Shown piece by piece: positions 15,192-21,781 of a stretch of DNA of 64,000 bases; the first letter of the stretch is position 1; the number at the start of each line of letters is the position of its first letter. The position numbers and the translations under genes are program-made. The stretch is from assembly GCA_024583055.1 (NCBI GenBank), contig CP102145.1:310001-374000 (forward strand). Reading direction: 5' to 3'. The notes beneath the pieces were generated by a model that was given only the letters and a program-made list of their open reading frames with translations, ran no database searches and was not told where the DNA came from. The DNA comes from Streptococcus suis (GTDB taxonomy: Bacteria > Bacillota > Bacilli > Lactobacillales > Streptococcaceae).

Positions 15192-16130
15192 TTAATCTGA
15201 TTTAAATATCCGCACATTTGTCCCAACTTCAACCTGACTGTCCACATCAATATCTAATTCTAGCTGGTGCAAGACGCGCTTGGTGAGATAGAGGCCAAAA
15301 CCAGTGGCTTTCTGGTGTTCACGTCCATTATAGCCCGTAAAACCTTCGTCAAAAAGACGCGGAATATCCTCGGGCAAAATGCCTAATCCTGTATCAGAAA
15401 TCGTAATTCCCTTGTCCAAAACAATGATTACTGAACCACCCATTTTGTTGTATTTCAGGGCGTTGTCCAAGACTTGCGATAGGGCAAAACTCAGCCACTT
15501 ACGGTCTGTTTTCAGCTGCCAATCCCCGTCGATAGCGACACTTATCTCGCGTTGCAGAAATTGTTGCCGGTATTTCTTGACCAAATCCACCACTACTTCT
15601 CTCACTTGGACCATTTCAAAGCGAAAATCCGAAGCTTGATTGGACAACTTGAGATAATTGAGCAAATTAGCCATGTAATTGTCCAAGCGCAGCAATTGTT
15701 GGTCAACATCTGCCTGTTGCAAATTGTCCGTCTGGCTCATGAGGGACAGGGCAGCCAAAGGAACCTTCATCTGGTGGGACCACATTTTTACCAGAGCCTG
15801 CAAATCCTCTTCACGCGTTTTATAGGCCAATAACTGCTCCTGCCACTGCTCCTTTTCCGTTGAAAGGACCTGTAAATAGGCCAGATCAGACGGTTTATCC
15901 AGCAAGGCAAGGTCCTTATCTGTTAGATTTTCCAAGGCTTGCATTCGCTGGCGGAATTTCCAATAGAGACCAAGACTGAAAAGAATCAAGATGCTCAAGG
16001 AAAATAGCAGAGCTTGGTACAAGAATGTAAGGGGAAGCCGATAGAGATAGAAAAGCAGGATAAAACCGCAAACTAGCAAGAGGTAGGCTAGCAATAAACT
16101 CCTGTATTCTCTTAAAAATTTGGCTATCAT
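15192..16130 (-). CDS. Bce-type intramembrane-sensing histidine kinase
   Basis: 312 residues. Two transmembrane helices (about 12-30 and 37-56) are separated by only a few residues, the hallmark of intramembrane-sensing kinases that take their signal from a BceAB-type transporter. The dimerisation/phosphoacceptor motif is 'KMWSHQMKVPLAAL' with His119. The ATPase domain has the N box ('VLDNALKYN'), G1 ('ISDTGLGI') and G2 ('ATGFGLYL'). It overlaps the response regulator gene by 4 bp, so the two are translationally coupled. Confidence 0.9.
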   Translation of the reverse strand: MIAKFLREYRSLLLAYLLLVCGFILLFYLYRLPLTFLYQALLFSLSILILFSLGLYWKFRQRMQALENLTDKDLALLDKPSDLAYLQVLSTEKEQWQEQLLAYKTREEDLQALVKMWSHQMKVPLAALSLMSQTDNLQQADVDQQLLRLDNYMANLLNYLKLSNQASDFRFEMVQVREVVVDLVKKYRQQFLQREISVAIDGDWQLKTDRKWLSFALSQVLDNALKYNKMGGSVIIVLDKGITISDTGLGILPEDIPRLFDEGFTGYNGREHQKATGFGLYLTKRVLHQLELDIDVDSQVEVGTNVRIFKSD

Positions 16131-16801
16131 TTGACAAGATACCCCACTCCCCGCACCGTATGAATGCGGTCAAAACCCAGTTCACCTGTTTTCTTGCGTA
16201 GTCGGGTCATATTGACATTGAGTGTATTTTGGTCGATAAATTCTTCATTTTCCCACAAGCTTTCCAACAAAACTTCCTTGCTCACAATCTGCCCAACCTG
16301 TTGCATAAGTGGCGTTAAGATTTTCGTCTCTGTCGGAGATAGCTGGATACTGGATTTGCCATCAGAAAAGCGCCCGTCAGGACTGAGTTTAAACTGATCC
16401 ACTTGCAAATCCGCTGTCTTACTAAATTGATTAACCCGACGTAGGAAGGCACCGATTTTGGCATCCAAAATCCCAAGTGAAAATGGCTTGGACACAAAAT
16501 CATCACCACCCATGTTCATAGCCATGACTGCATTCATCTCATCATCGCTAGAGGAGATAAAGATAATGGGCATGGTCATGGTTTTACGGATTTCCGTCGT
16601 CCAGTAAAACCCATTGTAATAAGGCAGGCTAATATCCATCAAGACCAGGTCTGGTTGGAACTCAACCACTTCCTGACTGACAGCTCGGAAATTCTGCACA
16701 CTTTCTACCTGATAAGATTTTCCCAAATGCTGCTTCAAGAGTTGGACAATTATCTCATCGTCTTCAACAATATAAATCTTCTCTTTTTTCATCATCTTCA
16801 T
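16127..16801 (-). CDS. OmpR-family response regulator (BceR-like)
   Basis: 224 residues from 16801; starts at 16795 or 16792 are also possible and none has a strong Shine-Dalgarno. The receiver domain has the acidic pair 'EDD', phosphoacceptor Asp56 in 'DLVLMDISLP' and the 'SKPF' Lys. A winged-helix DNA-binding domain follows (about 130-224, ending 'TVRGVGYLVK'). BceR relatives bind TNACA-N4-TGTAA, and exactly such boxes occur at 20785-20798 and 21768-21781 in this window, making those promoters likely targets (inference). Confidence 0.9.
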   Translation of the reverse strand: MKMMKKEKIYIVEDDEIIVQLLKQHLGKSYQVESVQNFRAVSQEVVEFQPDLVLMDISLPYYNGFYWTTEIRKTMTMPIIFISSSDDEMNAVMAMNMGGDDFVSKPFSLGILDAKIGAFLRRVNQFSKTADLQVDQFKLSPDGRFSDGKSSIQLSPTETKILTPLMQQVGQIVSKEVLLESLWENEEFIDQNTLNVNMTRLRKKTGELGFDRIHTVRGVGYLVK

Positions 16802-16806
16802 TCTGC

Positions 16807-16836
16807 AAAAGCCAGGACACAGGTCTTGGCTTTTTA
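16807..16836 (-). terminator. terminator between relBE and the two-component genes
   Basis: AAAAGCCAGGAC and GTCTTGGCTTTT (16807-16818 with 16823-16834) form a stem with T runs on both sides, directly at the end of relE. Confidence 0.6.
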
Positions 16837-17100
16837 TTTATATACTTCTTTTCGATGCCCGACTTCAAGGGCTGTTACGATCAATTTATCATCCTCAATG
16901 CTGACGATGACCCTGTAATTGCCGATACGGTACCGCCATTGGCCCGAACGATTGGCCGTCAAGGCTTTTCCGTATTGTCTGGGGTTGTCGGTCACATGAC
17001 TGGACAGGTAGTTGGTAATCTGTTTTTGGGTAAACTTATCCAACTTTTTCAATTGTTTAATAAAACGACTGGTCGGTACGAGTTTATAACAGGTCTTCAT
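16834..17100 (-). CDS. RelE/ParE-superfamily toxin
   Basis: 88 residues, the normal RelE length. 'YKLVPTSRFIKQLKKLDK', 'LTANRSGQWRYRIGNYRVIVSI' and the basic C-terminal 'VGHRKEVY' match RelE mRNA interferases, with the Arg/His/Tyr set placed as in active toxins. It overlaps the antitoxin gene by 17 bp. The pair sits between the Bce-type transporter and its two-component system, which divides that module. Confidence 0.9.
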   Translation of the reverse strand: MKTCYKLVPTSRFIKQLKKLDKFTQKQITNYLSSHVTDNPRQYGKALTANRSGQWRYRIGNYRVIVSIEDDKLIVTALEVGHRKEVYK

Positions 17101-17335
17101 CCGTCAACCCCAACTCTTCCAACATCTCCTCCCAGCTAATCGGCTCAATTCCATTCGCCAAGTCTGCTTGGTATTCTGCCCAAGCAATGTCTGCCACACG
17201 GGCATCGTATTCATCTTCAAGGGCTTCAAGGGTTTTAGTCCGAATGAGTTCTGACAAGCTGACACCTTCAAACTTTGCCATAGCCTGCATAAAGAGCTTG
17301 TCCTGCTCAGAAACTTTCAATGTAATAGCTGCCAT
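17084..17335 (-). CDS. RelB-like antitoxin (DUF6290 type)
   Basis: 83 residues. The N-terminal ribbon-helix-helix ('AAITLKVSEQDKLFMQAMAKFEGVSLSELIRTK', about 1-45) is followed by an acidic tail that would wrap the toxin. GAGG precedes the ATG at 17335. The promoter upstream carries a perfect TGGTATTACCA inverted repeat, the probable operator for autorepression. Confidence 0.9.
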   Translation of the reverse strand: MAAITLKVSEQDKLFMQAMAKFEGVSLSELIRTKTLEALEDEYDARVADIAWAEYQADLANGIEPISWEEMLEELGLTDEDLL

Positions 17336-17427: not shown

Positions 17428-19398
17428 CTACCGTTCAATAATACGATAATAGGTTCGGCTGGTCCACTTGTAAATGACAAAGTAGATCAAGACAACTGCA
17501 AGCAATGTAATACCACTGACCGTATAAATCATTAGTGATGAAGTAACACCAAAACTCAGTAGCATTTGCTTCAGCATGACCAAGGCTACCACAAAATGCA
17601 CAGTTGCCATGACCAAAGGCATAAAGAAGACCGTAAGTGTTTGGGAGTTAATGGTCTTTTTGACCGCTGCTGCACTCATGCCCACTTCTTGTAGGATCTT
17701 GTAGGATTTCTTGTCTTCATGCCCTTCTGAATACTGCTTATAGTATATAATCAGGGCTGCACCCAGTAGGAAACTAATTCCCAGCAAGAAACCAGTAAAG
17801 AGGAAACCGCCTGTAAAGCCCATCTGTAAATTGTTGAAATCGGATTTTTGCATAGCATATCCTAGGAATTCTCCGTTTGCATCGTTGATATTATAAGAGT
17901 CCCCAGCTTGCTCACCAATCGAAGCAACCTCTTCATCAGTCAAGTCGGTAAAGACACGGTAGTCCAGACTGACTGTATACCCTTGCGGATTATTGGACTC
18001 GTAATACTCACGAACAGCATCCAACACAGTGTCATCACTGACTACCATAACGGCGGCATTTAGCGTATTGTAGTTGTCTGGGAAAATAGCCTGGTCAAGA
18101 TTGGCTACATTCTCAAAGGTTTGATCGCCTAAAACAAGCTCTTTCAACGATGGTTTTTCGCTCGGACGCATAAAGACCACTTGATTGGCAGCAAGCTCTG
18201 GCAGGTCATTCCCCAATTTTCTGAAATCATCTTGCGTGATGAAGTAGGTAAAGGCTATTTTGCTAAAGTCTGGATTGGAAATGGTTTCCGGGCTAATGAT
18301 AATCTCTTCACCACCATCATAGACCAACCCAGCTTGATAGGTCAGGTAGGATAGATTGTCATTAGCTTTTTCTGGAAAATGGCTGAGCACCGATTGCTGA
18401 TAGGCAGCTTCACCTTGACTTCTATCCGAAACTTTATAGGTAATAGATGTTTCCTTGGGATATAGTGCACCTGTCATACTGCTCATACCTGTATAAAGAG
18501 ACGTTGTGGTCGCAATGGTCACAAAGGCCATGACCGCAAGTAGCGTAATATTGGCCAAACCCGTTGCGTGCTGTTTCATCCGGAAAATCATCTGCGAAGT
18601 CGTAATGAAATGCTCTGGCGTATAGAAATACCGCTTGTTTTTCCGACGAGCCTTCAAATACCAAGTCATAAAGCTGATATAGAACAGATAGGTCCCCGCA
18701 ATGACAAAGAGCACTGCGATGAAGAAACGATAGATGACAACTAACCCTGCTGCTTTCGATGAAAGTGATAGGTAGTATCCAACACCCAGTCCCACTACAC
18801 CAAGGGCAGCCAGAAGGACATTGCCTTTTGGCTCCTTCTCCCCCTTCTCGCTGGCACGGAACAAAATCAGTGGACTGGTCTTACCAATGGTCCGAATGGC
18901 CAGCAATTCCAAGAGAAAGAAGATACCAGCAAAGAGAAAGGCGGTCATGACAAAGGCCAGAGGATCTATTCCAAAATGTAAATCACTATAATGTGTTATA
19001 TTGACAAAAATCAAGTAGAGAACATTTGCAAACACACCAGCTAAGACAGAACCAAGAACCACAACCAGTAAGAATATCATCATCAATTCTAGACTGGCTA
19101 TCAATGCTACCTTTTTCTTGTTCATCCCCAGAATGTTATAGAGACCAAATTCTCTCGCCCGTTGTTTCATCAAGAAATTAAAACTGTAAATCTCCATAAT
19201 GACCGAGAAAATGGTCAGAACAACAACACCAAGACCGATAGAAACGGCACCAGAGCCCATGGTCTTCATAACTGGACTCAGCATGAGCAAGAACATGGAA
19301 CAAATCAGAGTAAATAGCACAAGACTGGCTAAAACGAAGGGAGCAAACTCACCCATGGATTTTCGGATATTTTGCCCAGCAAGTTTGAGGTAAAACAT
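17428..19398 (-). CDS. BceB-type ABC transporter permease
   Basis: 656 residues. It has the FtsX/BceB layout: one N-terminal helix, groups of transmembrane helices, a large extracytoplasmic domain between about 300 and 530, then three final helices. BceAB transporters free cell-wall precursors from peptide antibiotics and signal to their cognate kinase (family knowledge). It starts immediately after the ATPase stop, so the two are co-translated. The drug bound by the large loop cannot be predicted. Confidence 0.9.
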   Translation of the reverse strand: MFYLKLAGQNIRKSMGEFAPFVLASLVLFTLICSMFLLMLSPVMKTMGSGAVSIGLGVVVLTIFSVIMEIYSFNFLMKQRAREFGLYNILGMNKKKVALIASLELMMIFLLVVVLGSVLAGVFANVLYLIFVNITHYSDLHFGIDPLAFVMTAFLFAGIFFLLELLAIRTIGKTSPLILFRASEKGEKEPKGNVLLAALGVVGLGVGYYLSLSSKAAGLVVIYRFFIAVLFVIAGTYLFYISFMTWYLKARRKNKRYFYTPEHFITTSQMIFRMKQHATGLANITLLAVMAFVTIATTTSLYTGMSSMTGALYPKETSITYKVSDRSQGEAAYQQSVLSHFPEKANDNLSYLTYQAGLVYDGGEEIIISPETISNPDFSKIAFTYFITQDDFRKLGNDLPELAANQVVFMRPSEKPSLKELVLGDQTFENVANLDQAIFPDNYNTLNAAVMVVSDDTVLDAVREYYESNNPQGYTVSLDYRVFTDLTDEEVASIGEQAGDSYNINDANGEFLGYAMQKSDFNNLQMGFTGGFLFTGFLLGISFLLGAALIIYYKQYSEGHEDKKSYKILQEVGMSAAAVKKTINSQTLTVFFMPLVMATVHFVVALVMLKQMLLSFGVTSSLMIYTVSGITLLAVVLIYFVIYKWTSRTYYRIIER

Positions 19399-20151
19399 CT
19401 ACTCACCCCCTAAAAGTGCAGACATATTGAGCGAAATTTCCTTGGCAAAGTCCTGATTACTCTTGCCTGCCTTGTACAATTGATGGAAAATCCGACCATC
19501 CTTGATGAAGAGGACTCGTTTGGCATGGCTGGCTGCATTGGCTGAGTGGGTCACCATGAGAATAGTTTGCCCGTCACGGTTAATCTCTTCAAACAAATTC
19601 AGCAAGTCTTCCGAATTGCGGTAATCTAGGGCAGCTGTCGGTTCGTCCGCTAGGATAATCTGTGGCTGGGTAATCAAACTACGAGCAATGGCCACGCGCT
19701 GCTTTTGTCCACCAGAAAGTTCAAAAGGACGTTTTTTCAGCAAATCTTGAATCCGCAGTTTTGGCGCCAAAACTTTCAAACGTTTTTCCATTTCCTCATA
19801 GCCAGTACGTGCCAATACCAGAGGTAAAAAGATATTGTCTTGGATGGACAGGGTATCCAAGAGATTAAAATCTTGGAAAACAAAACCTAGATTACGCAAA
19901 CGGAAATCGGCCAGCTCGCTCTCCTTGATTTTGGTAATATCTTGATTGTTCAAGAGAACAGAGCCACGAGTTGGCTTGTCCAGGGTTGCAAGAATGTTGA
20001 GTAAGGTCGTTTTACCAGAACCACTTTCGCCCATAATTGCAATGAATTCACCCTTATCGACTTTGAAGTCCACATCTTGAAGGGCACGCGTTTCCTCTTT
20101 TGAAAAACGTGTGCGGTAAACTTTTTCTAAATGATTGATTTCTAATAACAT
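19399..20151 (-). CDS. BceA-type ABC transporter ATP-binding protein
   Basis: 250 residues with Walker A '[12 protein letters not shown]', the signature 'LSGGQKQR', Walker B '[12 protein letters not shown]' and the switch His in 'MVTHS'. It pairs with the permease downstream and is preceded by the lipoprotein gene with an 8-bp gap. The order peptide-lipoprotein-ATPase-permease suggests a single transcript from the BceR-box promoter near 20740. Confidence 0.93.
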
Positions 20152-20159
20152 ACAAACTC

Positions 20160-20549
20160 CTAATTGTTTTCTTTGGATAAATCAACTGTATCAAGTAATG
20201 CTTGATAGTCGATTCGGTCTGATTCAGCAATATTATCTTCTAAATCCACCTTATAATAACCATCCTGGACACCGATGGCCCATTCTTTGTTAGTGGTTAT
20301 ATAGAGATTATTCAAGGATACTGTCTTTTTCACTGCCCCTTCTTCTTTGACAACAGGCCAATCCATAAACGGAACTTCTGTTCCTTGAATACTATCTTCG
20401 GCAACTTCCTGTTTGCTAACGGCATAGTCTTTTCCTTTGTAATGGAAAGTTTGATAGCCCTCATCAAAGCTAAGGCCTGCTGAAGAGGAAGAACAAGCAG
20501 CTAACATTATACTGCCCAAAGCCAGCAAGCTAAATACTTTCTTTTTCAT
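20160..20549 (-). CDS. small lipoprotein of the Bce-type operon
   Basis: 129 residues. A classic lipoprotein signal with lipobox 'MLAAC' (Cys19) is followed by a Ser-rich linker and a compact domain with Tyr- and Trp-rich strands. Surface lipoproteins in such operons can act as immunity factors (NisI-like role), but I see no recognisable family motif. It is 8 bp from the ATPase gene and directly after a 46-residue ORF. Confidence 0.8.
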   Translation of the reverse strand: MKKKVFSLLALGSIMLAACSSSSAGLSFDEGYQTFHYKGKDYAVSKQEVAEDSIQGTEVPFMDWPVVKEEGAVKKTVSLNNLYITTNKEWAIGVQDGYYKVDLEDNIAESDRIDYQALLDTVDLSKENN

Positions 20550-20561
20550 CGTTTCCTCCCT

Positions 20562-20702
20562 CTAGTATGCCATAAATCGCATACTTTGCAAATCATGGGC
20601 GAGCTCTTCTAAGAATAAGGTTTGTTCCATGAGTTCAGCTTTCTCTTTTTCTGAGAATACCTTTTCTTCTATTCTCTTTGCTTGTAGAAATTTGAATGAC
20701 AT
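20562..20702 (-). CDS. small basic/acidic helical peptide, first gene of the Bce-type operon (46 aa)
   Basis: 46 residues starting 'MSFKFLQAKRIEEK', largely charged and probably one long helix, ending 'RFMAY'. GAAGGA precedes the ATG. It lies between the BceR-box promoter and the lipoprotein gene. A paralogous sequence with the same first eight residues lies after the second BceR-box promoter at 21685. I know of no described family; a leader or regulatory role is possible (inference). Confidence 0.65.
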   Translation of the reverse strand: MSFKFLQAKRIEEKVFSEKEKAELMEQTLFLEELAHDLQSMRFMAY

Positions 20703-20734
20703 ATGATTTCCTTCTTTCTGTTTCTTATGAGTTT

Positions 20735-20798
20735 ATTATAGATGATTTAGTCAACCTATTCACTTACAGTTCTGACGCAAAAACTTACAAGATTGTAA
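20735..20798 (-). promoter_or_regulatory. BceR-type regulated promoter (operon A)
   Basis: -10 TATAAT (20735-20740, minus strand) with no good -35. Upstream are two boxes whose starts are 21 bp apart: TTACA-GTTC-TGACG (20764-20777) and TTACA-AGAT-TGTAA (20785-20798). The second fits the BceR consensus TNACA-N4-TGTAA exactly. A weak -35 plus upstream boxes suggests activation. Confidence 0.75.
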
Positions 20799-20800
20799 GT

Positions 20801-21538
20801 TTAGAGAAAATAACCAATCGTGGCCAGTAGCCACAAATGAAGCGGATAGAAGATGTAAAAGAAATAACGTGAAAACGCTGTGCGGGGCCCTGCTTGTCCA
20901 TTATAATGACTTAGAATTGGCAAGACTAAGATAAATAACCAGTCAGCATTGTAGAGCATCATCTGGACAGTCATTTCAATACTTTCATAAGGCTGATAGG
21001 ACAAAAATAGCAAGAATAGGGCAAATAACCCGTAGAACAAGTTGCGTTTGAATAGTGACTTACGACCTAAATAGGTGATGAGGATGAAGGGCAAGACCAC
21101 ATAGCCACCTTCTGTTAAAAAGGCACCTAAGATGGTCAACAGTCCAACCGATAGGACTTGAAGGATTTGTTGCTTTCTAGTGTGTTCAGCAAAATTTCTA
21201 AGACAAACCAGTAAAGTTAATCCAACAGCTAATGTCAAAAAGATATTGTTACCGATGTAAATATCTTTTGATTGGTAAAGACTGTTTATCAAAACATTTC
21301 CAGTGGCCATCAGCCCTGCTGCACCATATAGTCGCAAAAGATAGTTTTTGACATTTCTCGTATGAAGATAGCCTTCAACCAACATGTAGGCAAAGAAGAC
21401 TGCGACGCATCGAGTGACCATGTGAAAGACCATACTAAGTTGGTCTGGGATAAAATCTGGTATGATTTTCAGATGATCCAAAACCATTATGCCAGCCATA
21501 GCGAGTTTCAGTTGATATGCATTGTACGATTTCACCAC
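20801..21538 (-). CDS. TraX-family membrane protein
   Basis: 245 residues, with eight or so hydrophobic segments. The opening 'LKLAMAGIMVLDHL' and the closing 'FFYIFYPLHLWLLATIGYF' are typical of TraX-like acyltransferase-fold proteins. E. coli TraX acetylates pilin, but chromosomal streptococcal members have no known substrate. It follows the second BceR-box promoter and the broken peptide gene, so it is probably induced with the neighbouring ABC operon. Its stop is three bases from box 2 of operon A. Confidence 0.8.
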   Translation of the reverse strand: MVKSYNAYQLKLAMAGIMVLDHLKIIPDFIPDQLSMVFHMVTRCVAVFFAYMLVEGYLHTRNVKNYLLRLYGAAGLMATGNVLINSLYQSKDIYIGNNIFLTLAVGLTLLVCLRNFAEHTRKQQILQVLSVGLLTILGAFLTEGGYVVLPFILITYLGRKSLFKRNLFYGLFALFLLFLSYQPYESIEMTVQMMLYNADWLFILVLPILSHYNGQAGPRTAFSRYFFYIFYPLHLWLLATIGYFL

Positions 21539-21546
21539 TTAAACCT

Positions 21547-21685
21547 CCTAGTACATCCAGTTACGTTGAAAGAGTTCGTGTTCTAATTCGAATAGTAATT
21601 CAGCTTGTTTTTCCTGTTTTTCTTGTCGTTTACTTTCTTGTGTTTTACCAAAAATGTGTTTTGCTTGTAAAAATTTGAATGACAT
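21547..21685 (-). pseudogene. second small-peptide gene, frameshifted
   Basis: It starts 'MSFKFLQAK', identical for nine residues to the peptide at 20702, but one extra A in a run of five near codon 9 leads to a stop after 13 codons. Removing one A restores a 45-residue charged helix ending 'LFQRNWMY'. GAAGGA lies upstream. It could be a sequence error, phase variation at the A run, or true decay. Confidence 0.6.
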
Positions 21686-21717
21686 AAACTTTCCTTCTCT
21701 CTGTTTCTTATGAGTCT

Positions 21718-21781
21718 ATTATAGAAAATAGTTCTGCCTTGTTCCCTTACAGTTCTGACGCAAAAACTTACAAGATTGTAA
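21718..21781 (-). promoter_or_regulatory. BceR-type regulated promoter (operon B)
   Basis: -10 TATAAT (21718-21723) with boxes TTACA-GTTC-TGACG (21747-21760) and TTACA-AGAT-TGTAA (21768-21781). The spacing and box bases are identical to operon A, while the DNA between boxes and -10 differs, so the match is functional and not just a recent copy. Confidence 0.75.

Follow-up and report, generated by a model that had tools for sequence, protein, structure and literature searches.

Two microprotein genes behind paired BceR/NsrR-type boxes, and a TraX-family membrane protein, at a Bce-type locus of Streptococcus suis

Twin promoters and gene order

The 64-kb window considered here (the whole stretch of DNA that was analysed, to whose positions the coordinates below refer) covers positions 310001-374000 of contig C1 in a 2.19 Mb Streptococcus suis genome, S. 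suis also being the nearest named relative for the genes at issue, and carries, on its minus strand, two microprotein genes, termed pepA and pepB, that each follow a paired BceR/NsrR-type box. In the direction of transcription, the order at this locus is paired box, PepB, a TraX-family membrane protein, paired box, PepA, a NisI-like lipoprotein, BceA, BceB, a ParE-type toxin-antitoxin pair, a response regulator, and a sensor kinase. With a regulator of the matching type, BceB together with BceA, and a BceR box upstream, the locus appears from its sequence to be a module of the BceAB/NsrFP type. Modules of this kind, the box they carry, and the way they are induced in S. suis and pneumococcus have been described before.

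The 35-bp paired box TTACAATCTTGTAAGTTTTTGCGTCAGAACTGTAA is present in two identical minus-strand copies, at 21781-21747 ahead of pepB and traX and at 20798-20764 ahead of pepA, the lipoprotein gene and bceAB, and the two promoters are separated by 983 bp. These are the only exact matches to TTACA-N4-TGTAA-N16-TGTAA in the genome; two genome sites match with one mismatch, and when up to three mismatches are allowed, the counts (58 and 51) are similar to those of a reversed control (53 and 44). The window holds two perfect single boxes, where 60 simulations gave 0.15 on average and never more than 1. Single boxes with up to two mismatches are not enriched there (37 found, 46.7 expected), and thus only the exact form carries weight. 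An original prediction, made from the letters alone, that both promoters share one pair of boxes with starts 21 bp apart, the first of them perfect, is borne out. Its assignment of the boxes to the BceR type is likewise upheld, as the first box reads TTACAA-TC-TTGTAA, the same form as the S. mutans BceR motif TTACAA-N2-TTGTAA (PMC11034029), and the boxes match the consensus TNACA-N4-TGTAA (PMC9020739). The motif, together with what has been published on related systems, suggests that the regulator would bind these paired boxes.

Each box is followed by a TATAAT element, identified by eye and present in aligned relatives, at 21718..21723 for pepB and 20735..20740 for pepA. No good -35 element was seen by eye at either promoter, as expected for activated promoters. 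At the 983-bp spacing, the promoter regions form a repeat of 66 bp (91% identity) and 52 bp (90%). The two boxes are identical to each other in the window and differ in each of the five other genomes that have both copies, so that their identity may reflect recent copying between promoters. The stretch from promoter to codon 9 is 84% alike between the two copies in the window but 98% alike between the window's pepA copy and that of genome G117; therefore, any such copying was short. A second Bce module in the same genome (contig C1, approximately 886.3-890.9 kb; L316) has a regulator 44% and a BceA 57-58% identical to those at the study locus, with a one-mismatch box ahead of bceA and no recognised peptide open reading frame (ORF). 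The regulator of this module is an alternative candidate for the control of the twin promoters.

PepB (21548..21685) and PepA (20562..20702) are 45 and 46 residues long and both begin, as had been noted, with MSFKFLQAK. The gene order of peptide, lipoprotein and ATP-binding cassette (ABC) transporter given in the prediction is also correct. PepA is followed by a NisI/SpaI-like lantibiotic-immunity lipoprotein (20160..20549; NF033433, E 3.6e-15; nisin immunity protein 5xhb, E 3.6e-8), a BceA/NsrF-type ABC ATPase (19399..20151; PF00005) whose relatives adjoin boxes, and a BceB/NsrP-type permease of 656 residues (17428..19398) with an FtsX domain and a match to BceB (7tcg, E 6e-28). The OmpR-type response regulator (16127..16801) is of the NsrR/BceR type, lies beside the kinase, and finds its best solved matches in 5dcl/5dcm (E 1.6e-88), the entries of S. 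agalactiae NsrR. The sensor histidine kinase (15192..16130; HATPase_c) appears by eye to cross the membrane twice and to have almost no extracellular domain. Between bceB and the regulator gene, at 16834-17335, lie the ParE-type toxin and its antitoxin (PF05016, PF19807); this pair was not found in L308 and L309, and its identity is about 70% in one part of the relatives and 95-99% in another.

Conservation and distribution of the microproteins

The peptide genes show the signature of purifying selection. Ratios of nonsynonymous to synonymous substitution (dN/dS), summed over sequence pairs with no tree, were 0.20 for PepA (18 distinct coding sequences), 0.18 for PepB (7), 0.23 for a 36-residue type from other streptococci described below (19), and 0.18 for the neighbouring lipoprotein (15). 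The PepA set comprised distinct full-length sequences with standard ends, with the divergent L021-L024 dropped. For each peptide set, the ratio of the underlying proportions (pN/pS) was lower than in every one of 200 column-shuffled controls. The first nine codons of PepA and PepB are almost fixed at the protein level and the tails are constrained, PepB having a conserved tail of its own, NWMY, while PepB codons 10-22 are near neutral (pS 0.244, pN 0.192). It is concluded, as judged from these codon patterns, that PepA and PepB are translated and that both ends of the peptides matter. The description of the second peptide gene as broken is thus not sustained, as PepB is a complete ORF with intact relatives and is under purifying selection overall.

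PepA-type peptides are present in 23 of 197 Streptococcus genomes. A single-sequence protein search with PepA returned 81 matching clusters, the named ones nearly all from S. suis or S. parasuis, and a profile search for the PepA/PepB type returned 105 matches at E up to 0.1. No homologue was recognised outside the S. suis group of species by these searches, which need shared five-residue words. In the window and in all 22 relatives (23/23 genomes), BceA lies downstream of PepA on the same strand. The interval between them holds the lipoprotein at most in 18 relatives, and a BcrA-like three-gene ABC unit besides the lipoprotein in the other four (L310-L313). PepA is kept where the lipoprotein has been lost (L019, L024) or truncated (L012). 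In L313 (G052), PepA has only 39 residues, and the bceA frame is interrupted and spread over two ORFs that overlap.

Short ORFs also occur at the Bce boxes of other streptococci. With up to one mismatch, the box matched in 124 of 197 genomes. Among 41 usable box pairs in 40 stretches chosen by hand from a partial list of these matches, 15 lead to bceA within 130 nt, 17 to bceA after a longer interval, one to TraX, and eight to something else. What lies between box and bceA varies: there are mini-ORFs for soluble or membrane peptides, genes that by eye look NSR-like, lipoprotein genes, and one acyltransferase-3 gene. In a survey of BceA in 30 chosen genomes (29 with a match; 30 loci kept), a 36-residue ORF like MKRILQKKTRKPSQKDIERVQLGCAMMQAQFQLMGY lies between box and bceA in 19 loci; another ORF of 37-46 residues stands just ahead of bceA in five, two of them from one genome and one without a perfect box; and none was recognised in six. 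The ORFs in these two surveys were selected on reading frame, start codon and ribosome site, and unconserved ones among them may be chance occurrences. The order box, 36-residue ORF, bceA recurred in all 28 loci that were rechecked (24 genomes), although these had been selected for the ORF and are not an independent test; one further locus gave no bceA. By similarity, the 36-residue ORF is found in 85 of 197 genomes, 64 at E below 1e-6 and 21 weakly (up to 0.1), and each of four weak scorers inspected (G046, G113, G147, G056) has an ORF of 42-43 residues upstream of bceA.

Named carriers of a box-associated peptide ORF include S. anginosus J4206, S. intermedius SK54, and S. gordonii DD07 (the same record as G056). 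At the TraX-adjacent bceA copies of the named S. sanguinis, S. cristatus, S. sinensis, S. anginosus and S. intermedius loci, no such ORF was found. The pneumococcal box is reported 227 bases before bceA (PMC9020739), and the corresponding distance in loci of the 36-residue type is 226-227; because of this agreement, pneumococcus probably also carries the 36-residue ORF. Kinship between the S. suis peptides and those of other streptococci is unsupported (hhalign probability 3%, E 0.015). Five loci (L226, L229, L230, L255 and L259) have hydrophobic mini-ORFs of 35-52 residues between Bce box and bceA, in tandem in all but L255 and with WYW(S/I)GR(R/K)P in the second by eye. In L237 and L254, paired Bce-type boxes stand directly upstream of ABC units that are BcrA-like by eye, in place of bceAB.

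The peptides could be cis-acting mini-cistrons, whose translation exposes the ribosome-binding site of the downstream gene or is coupled to it while the product is idle in trans. Such a role is consistent with the short stop-to-start spacing (12 nt after PepA and 9 nt after PepB in the window, about 13-14 nt in the 36-residue type), with a run of nine initial codons that hardly differs between PepA and PepB, as expected of an initiation region that had been copied, and with the near-neutral middle of PepB. However, dN/dS is 0.18-0.23 across three peptide sets, tails included, and neither unusual RNA structure (z scores of -0.83 and +2.0) nor an Rfam match was found. Additionally, in L300, L301, L303, S. 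anginosus J4206 and S. intermedius a first box precedes the peptide and a second one stands between the peptide and bceA; the boxes are perfect in three of these loci and have one mismatch in L300 and L303, and in L303 bceA starts about 0.5 kb past the second box. A peptide between two boxes has its own promoter, which is what speaks most strongly against a leader that acts purely in cis. The mini-cistron explanation is thus considered unlikely, although it is the least so of the alternatives weighed here. RNA attenuation by a leader peptide likewise found no support, the same tests having shown no structured leader with a terminator or a sequestered start site. The proposal of a peptide leader in Bce regulons survives in part: a peptide is present under the Bce box and is not confined to S. 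suis, but a leader in the cis-acting sense is disfavoured.

A second alternative is that the peptides leave the cell as signals or bacteriocin-like products, with the lipoprotein and BceAB as their immunity genes. The NisI/SpaI-type lipoprotein adjoins PepA, and BceAB-type transporters act on peptide antibiotics (PMC9020739), both of which would suit this role. Against it, the peptides are highly charged and by eye have neither a signal sequence nor a double-glycine leader, the neighbouring genes examined include none recognised as a modification gene, and PepA is retained where the lipoprotein has been lost. Export is accordingly regarded as very improbable. The predicted model of PepA is a single helix (predicted local distance difference test score 81, predicted template-modelling score 0.44) and is of no use for function. 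The idea of an amphipathic helix was dropped, because hydrophobic moments were no higher than those of shuffled peptides.

The TraX-family protein and its association with the box

The TraX-like membrane protein said to follow the second peptide is indeed a member of that family (20801..21538; 245 residues; PF05857, E 2.7e-15, 57.4 bits against a gathering cut-off of 25) and is a likely acetyl-CoA-dependent acyltransferase. Acyltransferase-3 proteins have an R/K-X10-H motif and an RXXR motif that is highly but not absolutely conserved (PMC7448272). The former is found as K11-X10-H22 in the first transmembrane helix and recurs as K-X10-H in 51 of 52 aligned TraX sequences; the latter was not seen by eye in the window protein, whose R61 and R69 are not spaced as RXXR. 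The acyltransferase-3 profile PF01757 does not match it at E up to 0.1 and matches two of the 52 aligned sequences, and a TraX profile searched against the sequences of solved structures gave no match up to E 1. By VIA-align, the predicted model appeared most like acetyl-CoA-bound HGSNAT. On the motif and this likeness, the proposed role in envelope modification is plausible, and TraX is somewhat more probably than otherwise a membrane O- or N-acyltransferase that would use acetyl-CoA on a wall or membrane component.

The proposed link between TraX and the Bce system holds across streptococci at the level of the box. Among the best 80 of 392 TraX relatives in a named collection, 35 were labelled Streptococcus, two of them with short frames (L123, L142). 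A box with at most one mismatch lies within 300 bp upstream of 34 of these 35 (the exception being L178), compared to 27 of the 428 remaining ORFs in the same loci that have 150 or more residues, whether real genes or not; a perfect box precedes 27 of 35 and 10 of 428, respectively. Because many of the loci are close relatives, they are not independent events. Of the 45 TraX loci outside the Streptococcus label, 10 also have the box upstream, including those of Floricoccus, Eubacterium yurii and Peptostreptococcus russellii. Similarly, a search of the genus, drawing partly on the same genomes, found the box at all of the 30 best-scoring TraX loci (window included), perfect in 26. BceAB adjoins TraX in S. 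sanguinis, S. gordonii, S. anginosus, S. intermedius, S. cristatus and S. sinensis, but not in S. oralis. No conjugation or pilin gene was recognised among the TraX neighbours examined, with family searches covering the genes of the locus.

Within the S. suis group, PepB occurs in six genomes, the same six that carry a close TraX (at least 78% identity). The pairing of TraX with PepB could reflect promoter capture, in which a copy of the pepA promoter and of the beginning of its gene brought TraX under control, with PepB carried along as a passenger. The near-identical repeats of 66 bp and 52 bp are in keeping with this, as is the arrangement at most other streptococcal TraX loci, where the box lies about 100 bp upstream and leaves no room for a peptide. 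TraX and PepB are also present together in only 6 of the 23 PepA genomes, and PepB codons 10-22 are near neutral. On the other hand, PepB keeps an intact frame with a dN/dS of 0.18 (7 sequences) and its own conserved tail; in G124 (L306), moreover, both boxes and both peptide genes, pepA and pepB, are intact although TraX is interrupted and its fragments fall in different frames. Promoter capture is therefore held to be improbable, slightly more so than the mini-cistron.

Variations were also seen at the position of PepB and TraX in other genomes. In L307 and L308, transposase-like genes (by eye) lie between an ATP-grasp gene and the pepA promoter, which is the PepB-TraX position in the window. 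In L239 (G026), one Bce box pair is followed by an acyltransferase-3 gene (PF01757, E 2e-8), at a position that resembles that of TraX, and a second box pair overlaps the end of this gene, just ahead of bceA.

Relation to known systems and a possible mechanism

The locus resembles several described systems. Like the nsr operon of S. agalactiae (NSR, NsrFP, NsrRK), it combines an NsrR-type regulator, a BceAB-type transporter and a kinase. It differs in having a NisI-like lipoprotein in the slot presumably held by NSR in the S. agalactiae gene order, a microprotein at the head of each operon, and a second operon with TraX. NSR-like genes (by eye) occupy the lipoprotein slot in L221 and L255. The S. 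suis SstFEG-BceAB-BceRS system (PMC6819616) is probably the same locus, because the gene order of L310-L313 (box, PepA, lipoprotein, three-gene ABC unit, BceAB, regulator, and kinase where the stretch reaches it) agrees with it. There, bacitracin induces sstFEG and bceAB in a BceRS-dependent manner. The window differs in that TraX lies upstream and SstFEG is absent, and PepA and TraX are not named in the available passages of that article.

In S. pneumoniae, TCS01-BceAB (PMC9020739, PMC11034029) has the same box, but its kinase and regulator are not beside bceAB, and the available passages mention no small ORF. The BceR/MbrC regulon of S. mutans (PMC7609970, PMC9360744) has the same box motif and several bacitracin-induced genes besides mbrAB, among them SMU.302, SMU.862-864, SMU.1479 and SMU.1856c (PMC7609970). 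If SMU.302, SMU.862, SMU.1479 or SMU.1856c encodes a TraX-like or small protein, the novelty of the present arrangement could be lower.

TraX itself shares K-X10-H in the first helix with the acyltransferase-3 and transmembrane acetyltransferases (OafA, HGSNAT), and its model appears HGSNAT-like, but it belongs to PF05857 rather than PF01757, has no RXXR, and is only 245 residues long. F-plasmid TraX, which acetylates pilin, shares PF05857 with the window protein; the latter differs in its apparent control by the box and in that no conjugation gene was recognised among its examined neighbours. In the open-access literature, no publication was found that joins TraX with Bce systems, nor, among the matches listed and judging by title, one on a microprotein in Bce operons. 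PMC9426450, an article matched on ribosome profiling and small ORFs, does not mention bacitracin in its main text, and an article matched on the TraX family does no more than list such a protein in Pseudomonas.

Overall, these features may describe a peptide-antibiotic response module of the NsrR/BceR type in which two regulator-activated operons, derived from a duplicated promoter and peptide unit, encode trans-acting microproteins and an envelope acyltransferase, a model given even chances of being correct. In this model, one promoter-plus-peptide unit would have been duplicated to give the two operons. BceAB and the histidine kinase would sense a wall-active peptide, and the phosphorylated regulator would act on the paired boxes to produce two transcripts: one for PepA, the NisI-like lipoprotein and BceAB, with the transporter and lipoprotein providing protection, and one for PepB and TraX, with TraX modifying the envelope. 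Binding by the regulator, co-induction of both promoters, acetyl transfer, and trans action of the peptides are inferred steps of this model, while the boxes, gene order, intact ORFs, selection, co-occurrence, and the TraX motif and model are observed. PepA and PepB would each be a small helical partner for the membrane protein produced alongside it. That they act in trans, by modulating BceAB-kinase signalling or by keeping the transporter and TraX stable, is put at slightly under an even chance. More tentatively, the streptococcal Bce microproteins (36-46 residues), expressed from the box that also serves the transporter and in some cases from a separate promoter, might be an overlooked class of trans-acting subunits or governors of the BceAB-kinase complex, with the S. 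suis duplicate reassigned to a TraX-type acetyltransferase and coupling sensing to envelope acetylation.

Bce-type modules are usually described as a transporter with a two-component system. The microprotein under selection that heads the operon in S. suis, together with the comparable ORFs of S. anginosus, S. intermedius, S. gordonii and many relatives, would add a component missing from that description. The link between box and TraX (34/35) additionally provides a functional handle on a widespread and little-studied membrane family, with putative envelope acetylation under attack by peptide antibiotics. If this is true, the same response would couple antibiotic sensing to envelope acetylation.
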